64,000 nucleotides of DNA, from the NCBI RefSeq assembly GCF_003014555.1, contig NZ_PYGE01000002.1, forward strand, positions 372,001-436,000, written 5' to 3'. The position numbers and the translations under genes are program-made. The DNA is from Haloactinopolyspora alba. Its GTDB lineage: Bacteria; Actinomycetota; Actinomycetes; Jiangellales; Jiangellaceae. The notes under the pieces were generated by a model, which had not been told where the DNA came from, searched no databases, and saw only the letters and a list, made by a program, of their open reading frames with translations. Below, in pieces: positions 19,740-51,050 of this stretch (position 1 is its first letter; the number at the start of each line of letters is the position of its first letter).

Positions 19740-20393
19740 ATGACCGGGCTGCTGGTCTTCTCGGCGACCAACGGCTACCGGCACGACTCGATACCGGCCG
19801 GGGTGGCGGCGCTGCGCGACCTGGGTGCTGAGGCCGGCTTCGACGTCGACGCCACCGAGGACCCCACCTACTTCACGACGAGGTCGCTGCGCGGCTACGA
19901 CGCCGTGGTGTTCCTCAGCTCGTCCGGCACCGTCTTCGACGACGAGCAGCGCGCCGCGCTCGAGCGCTTCGTGCGCGACGGCGGTGGCTACGTCGGCATC
20001 CACGCCGCCAGCACGACCGAGTACGACTGGCCGTTCTACGGTGAGCTGGCCGGCGCCCGGTTCGACCGGCACCCGCCGGTGCAACCGGGCGTCATCACGG
20101 TCGAGGACCACGACCATCCGGCGACGGCCCATCTGCCGGCCCGATGGGAGTGGACGGACGAGTGGTACGACTTCCGCTCCGACCCGCGTCCGCACGTCCG
20201 CGTGCTGCTCTCGGTCGACGAGGACAGTTACGAGGGCGGCCGGATGGGGCCCGGGCACCCGATCGCCTGGTGCCATCGTGTCGGTTCCGGCCGGTGCTTC
20301 TACACGGCGCTGGGGCACACCGCCGAGGCGTTCGACGAGCCCGTGTTCCGGGCACACCTGCACGGCGGCATCACGTCGGTGCTGCCGGGCTGA
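19740..20393 (+). CDS. ThuA-like domain protein (single domain)
   Basis: This 217-residue cytoplasmic protein has the glutamine-amidotransferase-like ThuA fold. Motifs are GLLVFSATNGYRHDSIPAGVAAL, then GGYVGIHAASTTEYDWPFYGEL, WTDEWYDF and HPIAWCHRVGSGRCFYTALGHTAEAF. The same core occurs in three large secreted proteins of this window. ThuA of rhizobia is needed for trehalose and related disaccharide use together with the dehydrogenase ThuB. ATG 19740 is chosen because GGAGG lies 5-6 bp before it; an ATG at 19689 would add 17 residues. No signal peptide is seen, so this is an intracellular version. Confidence 0.88.
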   Translation: MTGLLVFSATNGYRHDSIPAGVAALRDLGAEAGFDVDATEDPTYFTTRSLRGYDAVVFLSSSGTVFDDEQRAALERFVRDGGGYVGIHAASTTEYDWPFYGELAGARFDRHPPVQPGVITVEDHDHPATAHLPARWEWTDEWYDFRSDPRPHVRVLLSVDEDSYEGGRMGPGHPIAWCHRVGSGRCFYTALGHTAEAFDEPVFRAHLHGGITSVLPG

Positions 20394-20411: not shown

Positions 20412-20598
20412 GTCACCTGATCGTCTCTTGGTCACCTGATCACGTAGATCGAGATGATCAGGTGATCCACAGCGACGACGCTGCTGGCGCCGTCTCTCGG
20501 ACGGGTCACCTGATCGTCTCCAGCATGTGGACGCGAAATGATCAGGTGAGGGTGCTCCCTGCGCGAGGTGTTGCGAGGCGTCCGAATGTCACCTGATC
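20412..20598. repeat. Cluster 1 of the GATCAGGTGAC repeat (six copies)
   Basis: Copies: minus orientation at 20412-20422, 20431-20441, 20505-20515 and 20588-20598; plus orientation at 20456-20465 and 20540-20549 (these two as GATCAGGTGA). Opposite neighbours can pair into stem-loops. The unit 20505-20549, read on the minus strand, matches 28544-28589 at about 39 of 45 positions, including an inner GTCCACAT-CTGGAG block. The layout resembles REP/BIME-type palindromic clusters. Confidence 0.85.
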
Positions 20599-27825: not shown

Positions 27826-28454
27826 TGACGCAGCGGAAGCTGGCCGTCGTCTCCGCCGGGCTGCGTGAGCCGTCGTCGACCCGGATGCTGGCCGACCGCC
27901 TGGCCGCAGCCACCGCCGAGGCGCTGCGGCAGCAGGACACCGAGCCGGAGGTCACCGTCGTCGAGCTCCGCGACCACGCGGCGGAGCTGAGCAGCACCAT
28001 GCTGACCGGGTTCGCGACCGGGACGCTGAGCACGGCGATCGACGACGTGGTCGCGGCCGACGGCCTGATCGCGGTGACGCCGGTGTTCACGGCGTCGTAC
28101 AGCGGCCTGTTCAAGTCGTTCTTCGACGTGCTCGACGCGGACGCGCTGGCCGGCATGCCGGTGCTGATCGGCGCGACCGGCGGGACGGAGCGGCACTCGC
28201 TGGTCCTCGAGCACGCGATGCGCCCGATGTTCACCTACCTGCGCTCGGTCGTCGTGCCGACCGGTGTGTACGCCGCGACGTCGGACTGGGGCACGGGGAC
28301 GGCGACCGGCGTACTCGGCGACCGGATCACCCGTGCGGGTGCCGAACTGGCCGGGCTCGTCGCGTCCCGGAAGCCGCGCGAAGCGGCGGACCCGTTCGCC
28401 GCGCCGACACCGTTCGAGCAGCTGCTGGCCGAGGTCGATCACTCCGACAACTGA
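27825..28454 (+). CDS. NAD(P)H-dependent FMN reductase (CE1759 family)
   Basis: This 209-residue flavodoxin-like reductase supplies reduced FMN to the monooxygenase encoded upstream. Motifs are LAVVSAGLREPSSTRMLADRL (phosphate-binding loop), VTPVFTASYSGLFKSFFDVLD, VLIGATGGTERHSLVLEHAMRPMFTYL and PTGVYAAT. ATG 27825 overlaps the preceding TGA (TGATG) and has GGAGG 7 bp upstream; GTG 27822 is less well spaced. The shared overlap implies equal synthesis of the two proteins. Confidence 0.9.
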   Translation: MTQRKLAVVSAGLREPSSTRMLADRLAAATAEALRQQDTEPEVTVVELRDHAAELSSTMLTGFATGTLSTAIDDVVAADGLIAVTPVFTASYSGLFKSFFDVLDADALAGMPVLIGATGGTERHSLVLEHAMRPMFTYLRSVVVPTGVYAATSDWGTGTATGVLGDRITRAGAELAGLVASRKPREAADPFAAPTPFEQLLAEVDHSDN

Positions 28455-28506: not shown

Positions 28507-28718
28507 GATCAGGTGACAAACAGAAGCCGTACGACGCGTGGCAGTCACCTGATCGTTCTGTGTCCACATCCTGGAGGCGATCAGGTGACAACGGACCGCT
28601 CGGCGGTGACGTCGGCCGTCGTCGGAGCAGGCGTCGGCCGGTTGGGTGTCACCTGATCACGCGAGAGGCGATGATCAGGTGCACAAGTGGTGATCAGGTG
28701 ACACGGCGATCAGGTGAC
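28507..28718. repeat. Cluster 2 of the GATCAGGTGAC repeat (seven copies)
   Basis: Plus copies are at 28507-28517, 28579-28589, 28692-28702 and 28708-28718, with a truncated one (GATCAGGTG) at 28673-28681. Minus copies are at 28544-28554 and 28648-28658. It fills the 268-bp gap between the convergent FMN reductase and ROK genes, ending 5 bp from the ROK stop. It may act as a bidirectional terminator, a protein-binding array or a dispersed palindromic element. Confidence 0.85.
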
Positions 28719-51006: not shown

Positions 51007-51050
51007 AATGATCACGTTCCGCATGGAATTCCATGCGGAACGTGATCATT
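51007..51050. repeat. Perfect 44-bp palindrome
   Basis: The sequence from 51007 to 51050 equals its own reverse complement, centred on GAATTC, with TGATCA near both ends. There is no loop, so it can form a 22-bp cruciform arm. It lies 17 bp after the ROK-2 stop and 140 bp before the next gene. A single arm with one mismatch occurs at 26511-26530. A terminator or recombination/protein-binding role is possible. Confidence 0.9.

Follow-up and report, generated by a model that had tools for sequence, protein, structure and literature searches.

What is a short word of 11 bases, GATCAGGTGAC, doing when it is repeated in alternating orientation in two separate intergenic gaps of Haloactinopolyspora alba? 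The window (the whole 64,000-nucleotide stretch of DNA that was analysed) belongs to a genome, G000, of 5,535,374 bases (~5.5 Mb) in 49 contigs. An initial annotation described six copies of the word in one gap and seven in the other, and took them for either a REP/BIME-like dispersed palindrome or the binding array of a protein. The copies are there as described. In the first array four match exactly and the other two have one mismatch each; in the second, six match exactly and one has two mismatches. The features are listed below by position in the window; in the layouts, signs give the orientation of each word copy and numbers the bases between copies.

20412-20598, - strand: array 1, with six copies of the word; its layout on the - strand is + 37 - 24 + 38 - 14 + 8 +, and it is flanked by a gene with a ThuA domain and one for a GH2 beta-galactosidase, both on the + strand
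20412-20422, - strand: word copy, exact
20431-20441, - strand: word copy, exact
20456-20466, + strand: word copy, one mismatch
20505-20515, - strand: word copy, exact
20516-20539, - strand: central spacer of 24 bases, conserved, which contains the inner site GTCCR(N5)YGGA
20540-20550, + strand: word copy, one mismatch
20588-20598, - strand: word copy, exact
28507-28718, + strand: array 2, with seven copies of the word in the layout + 26 - 24 + 58 - 14 + 8 + 5 +; it is flanked by an FMN-reductase gene and a ROK gene that converge on it
28507-28517, + strand: word copy, exact
28544-28554, - strand: word copy, exact
28555-28578, + strand: conserved central 24-base spacer
28579-28589, + strand: word copy, exact
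28648-28658, - strand: word copy, exact
28673-28683, + strand: word copy, two mismatches
28692-28702, + strand: word copy, exact
28708-28718, + strand: word copy, exact

Both arrays lie between called genes, bounded at 20393 and 20747 in the first case and at 28454 and 28723 in the second. A further weak match at 28446, with two mismatches, runs into a gene end and probably arose by chance. In the window as a whole there are 45 matches to the word with at most two mismatches against 21.3 expected, and none of 100 shuffles reached 45. The likeness at about 39 of 45 bases reported between the two arrays holds. Between identical word segments, the two inner spacers of 24 bases have six differences, which by an eye count gives 39 of 45.

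The word is common across the genome. The initial annotation had proposed a genome-wide count and had said that a copy number at chance level, or frequent occurrence inside genes, would tell against it. The count gave 258 exact copies (122 on the + strand and 136 on the - strand) compared to none for the reversed control, and none of the 50 arrays with at least three motifs and both neighbours readable stands inside a called gene, the calls coming from a simple codon-usage script that missed at least one gene. A few arrays overlap the 3′ end of a gene by 10 bases or fewer. Among 100 places of the word listed in this genome, 93 are clustered and seven are isolated single copies, at least one of which (L015) stands in seemingly coding sequence. 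The pattern CACCTGATC N22-28 GATCAGGTG marks 51 central units. The 45 stretches fetched around arrays, together with the window, yielded 52 clusters; one of these (L080 12523) was excluded as a chance pair, and 51 arrays remain. The genome of this soil actinobacterium holds about 50 copies of the element, mostly where two genes converge.

The arrays share one plan. They are mostly intergenic, are ~165-195 bp long and hold five to seven copies of the word, and the common layout among the 51 that were read is + 26 - 24/25 + 26/27 or 37/38 - 14 + 8 +, sometimes with one further + site or with one site missing. The two arrays in the window are atypical, with 37 and 38, or 58, replacing one or both of the 26-27 spacers. 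The earlier remark that this is more than a short operator is right. In 300 copies of the word, a sample biased by being picked with at most two mismatches, the first nine bases are 99-100% constant and RAY precedes them. The consensus of the central spacer is close to GTTTCGNGTCCRNATNNYGGACAT and contains an inner palindrome, GTCCR(N5)YGGAC; a 25-base form ends in YGAGACGC. The spacers of 26-38 bases are near random, with a mean pairwise identity of 0.42 compared to 0.36-0.38 for shuffled ones. When an exact central pair is taken as the anchor, 81 of 100 outer sites match exactly and 91 of 100 match within two mismatches, a level reached by 0 of 400 shifted controls. The spacers between + and - sites measure 24-28 or 36-38 bp, with none at 29-35 (n = 190, three genera). 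For example, in the far-side array of the sdhB gap the spacer is 37 in H. alba and Phytoactinopolyspora limicola and 26 in P. alkaliphila, a step of 11 bp.

In H. alba, 50 arrays have both neighbours, and they fall into 25 converging, 21 co-directional and four diverging gaps; converging gaps make up 25/50 of the array gaps against 73/530 of the other gaps in the same stretches (p = 1e-8). The flanking genes are ordinary core genes, the commonest Pfam family having three members among 98 flanking proteins, and no recurrent transposase or regulator is seen beside the arrays in the 25 families listed of 181 from these proteins. Array orientation follows no rule relative to the direction of flanking genes (by eye, 10 for and 9 against), and by eye there is no bias in the position or orientation of arrays along the complete genome G013, which may be J. 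gansuensis. A tRNA search of one stretch (L086) found none.

Other palindromes occur in the same genome. A second family, CATGATCATCGGCACTTTCC...GGAAAGTGCCGATGATCATG, lies at 1940-2000 of the window, in a converging gap, and at L064 10280, L067 7054, L074 2527 and L085 4678. A third, the perfect palindrome GGAATGATCACGTTCCGCATGGAATTCC..., lies at 51007-51050 and 26511 of the window and at L061 98, L082 3197 and L083 10269, and its longer form runs into CGTCACCACCC. The second, third and main families all have TGATC at their outer ends. In the H. alba stretches and the window, a sample centred on arrays, a strong inverted repeat outside four named families is present in 16 of 60 converging gaps (of at least 60 bp) and in 8 of 94 diverging ones.

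The array is confined to part of the Jiangellaceae, a family of the Actinomycetes: 9 of 22 genomes are array-rich and 13 have none or nearly none, so its function is dispensable. The central pattern is found 51 times in G000, 37 in G021, 11 each in G013 and G014, 10 in G011, six in G018, five each in G007 and G015, two in G008 and not at all in the 13 others. A sequence profile (R1), for which at most 150 candidates were scored per genome and in which one array can match on both strands, gave 16-131 matches in the same nine genomes, three in G020, one each in G016 and G006, and none in ten. Named matches, 36 among the 94 stretches listed, belong to Jiangella muralis, J. anatolica, P. alkaliphila and P. 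limicola; the motif layout was read in 10 of the other 58 matched stretches and no such array was present. The word also has dialects. P. limicola uses a shifted form, GATCAGATG, with 220 +/- pairs of GATCAGNTG versus only two central units of the H. alba word, and its arrays carry GATCAGATGC in the same layout. In P. alkaliphila, certain positions of the array carry GATCAGATGAC and GATCAGGCGAC. A search for overrepresented words in 200 kb each of G017 and G019 returned only a coding tandem repeat and noise; G019 has a 15-base tandem repeat, GACGGCACTGAGGTC, at L246 10097-10360, which is probably coding.

Whole arrays have been copied to new places, and arrays have also been inherited in place. 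Across three genera, one lies downstream of sdhB, in the sdhB/pcrA gap: G000, G015, G018, G007, G013 and G014 have arrays there, as does G008 with a shifted word. At this place G009, G003, G021 and G016 carry another palindrome, TTGATCTTGGAG..., and neither is present in G019, G020, G012, G010, G006 and G005. In G011 the sdhB stretch stops at a contig edge, and an array lies beside the neighbouring gene on another contig. In H. alba, G013 and P. alkaliphila the gap holds two arrays with a gene between them, which has no Pfam match in H. alba and is a glyoxalase-superfamily protein in P. alkaliphila; in P. limicola two arrays face each other. The gap of array 2 has arrays in G000, G021 and G011 (J. 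anatolica and J. muralis included), the TTGATCTTGGAG palindrome in G019, G013 and G003, and an TGATCACGTT palindrome in G020; the other 12 loci were read and have no array.

In ten orthologous array pairs, picked since both members still hold arrays, 533 of 572 word bases are identical (93%) compared to 638 of 937 spacer bases (68%), each pair with p < 0.02. In the distant pair G000/G018 the figures are 61/64 for the word and 52/100 for the spacers. These comparisons indicate that the word is kept by selection at orthologous sites.

Several further observations concern these gaps. In G017 (L264) a single word copy is left downstream of sdhB, where its close relative G018 has five, and the site looks as if an array had collapsed by recombination between its repeats. 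At the pcrA/sdhB site of two genera, two inverted arrays enclose different genes (L086 7082-8200; L119 2567-3308). In the converging gaps that follow sdhB and the ROK gene (L258-L294), the palindrome family present varies from species to species, and the slots look interchangeable between families.

How are such arrays to be explained? The reading that we favour, and hold to be slightly more likely than not, is a docking array on double-stranded DNA for a putative lineage-specific protein; at converging genes it would probably serve as a barrier or have an architectural role. Among the other explanations, a selfish miniature element of the MITE type is a real but minor possibility. It would be of no use to the host, its word would be kept for a transposase, and it would collect in converging gaps, where insertion does least harm. 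Like bacterial MITEs and other small mobile sequences, the array is small, non-coding, dispersed and copied with unrelated flanks. For example, the 99 spacer bases compared between the arrays L089 10988 and L094 11746 are 82% identical, and their flanks are unrelated beyond about ten bases. Copy number varies among close relatives as well, and in J. muralis the array sits inside another element that has multiplied. The array differs in that its word is selectively kept at orthologous sites, intact long after the spacers have diverged, although these sites need no further transposition. Within the array, position-specific words are preserved as well, and the 25 families listed for the flanking proteins include no transposase.

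The case of J. muralis deserves a closer look. A burst of array copies 91-96% alike was considered as mobility of the array itself and rejected, since the surrounding element, which has terminal inverted repeats of 18-19 bp and is found without an array in G017, explains it better. In G017, G018 and G011 the site of one such 290-bp insertion (L161) is cleanly empty; CTAG flanks the insertion on both sides and occurs a single time in the empty site. These empty sites are those of the J. muralis composite, whose ends are those of another element. A Jiangella element of ~160 bp (L253 18842-19010; L248 142-300; many further matches) has terminal inverted repeats of 18-19 bp (GGGTGTGTCTCCCGGGTC) and in J. 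muralis carries the array inside it; its Rfam matches are all weak and below threshold.

A second alternative, which we regard as improbable, is that the + N - pairs fold as RNA or single-stranded DNA and serve as a two-way terminator or stabiliser of mRNA ends. This would suit the perfect inverted pairs of 11 bp that lie at the 3′ ends of genes, as well as the other long palindromes often present in converging gaps of this genome. Compared to shuffles, the spacers also have a slight folding excess (mean z of -0.46 ± 0.12 for the inner spacers and of -0.90 ± 0.18 for the central ones), and those of 27 bases have a weak mirror pairing (p 0.03), so the array may have some hairpin character, a point against the docking reading. 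Against the hairpin, among 176 pairs of inverted partners 70 changed positions in the word are one-sided and five are two-sided, two of these still pairing. The spacers of 26 bases give no clear covariation signal, the variable R/Y pair in the central site gives none, Rfam returned only weak matches below family thresholds for the window stretch and the double-array gap, and spacer lengths step by ~11 rather than varying freely.

The REP/BIME family, which would be mobilised by a RAYT (Y1) transposase, was the first half of the initial annotation's reading, and its arrangement is indeed found: the copies alternate at regular spacing, number more than 100 in the genome and lie at gene 3′ ends. 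The BIMEs and REPs of enterobacteria and pseudomonads (PMC2817692; PMC3733652) too are alternating inverted copies, regularly spaced, intergenic and above 100 in a genome, many lie between converging genes, and protein binding has been proposed for them; PMC3733652 places REPs mostly between converging and co-directional genes. Membership is refuted, however, because none of the 22 family genomes has the REP-type Y1 transposase that the annotation had suggested looking for, whereas a control search found it in 5 of 14 known genomes. The end tags are missing too: within six bases of the array ends (52 clusters, one of them a chance pair), GTAG/CTAC occurs at no left and one right end and CGTC/GACG at two left and one right. 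Unlike REPs, the array has five to seven sites in one fixed layout with spacer steps of about one helical turn, and its word changes are uncompensated in the partner, which speaks against a hairpin-based REP. This origin is very improbable. A DNA uptake sequence is hardly credible: an invariant short word that forms inverted pairs where genes end, and dialects between species, recall the DUS of Neisseriaceae, for which dialects are known (PMC3630211), but the word has 258 copies rather than thousands, nearly all in structured intergenic arrays, and the competence family PF03772 is present in 21 of 22 genomes with or without arrays and so explains nothing about them. A literature search returned no paper on this element, and of 29 papers in which the exact word occurs, the 20 listed have unrelated titles.

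The uncompensated word changes, the spacer steps, the geometry of the outer sites and the word dialect together point to a protein on double-stranded DNA. The binding array is the better-supported half of the initial annotation's reading, itself partly supported overall. In the docking reading, a putative sequence-specific protein, limited to the array-bearing lineages, would bind the word on double-stranded DNA and would form a single complex on each array, in phase with the helical turns. No cognate protein was found. The 37-38 spacer class may be one inherited sub-family, in which case the argument from the helix is weaker. At the meeting place of converging transcription units, the bound array would most likely serve as a barrier or an anchor; this role is the least certain step and is put forward tentatively. 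More speculative, and on balance unlikely, is a boundary system of the Jiangellaceae in which a lineage-specific protein on a helically phased array would insulate converging genes, word and protein would drift into dialects, and the slots of a lost system would go to other palindromes.

Dispersed palindromes of bacteria are usually treated as hairpins or parasites. An array of fixed geometry, helically stepped and selectively kept, can be distinguished from both by sequence alone. Its all-or-none presence in close relatives, together with the word dialect, offers a direct route to the cognate protein and would also let the role of the array at converging genes be tested.
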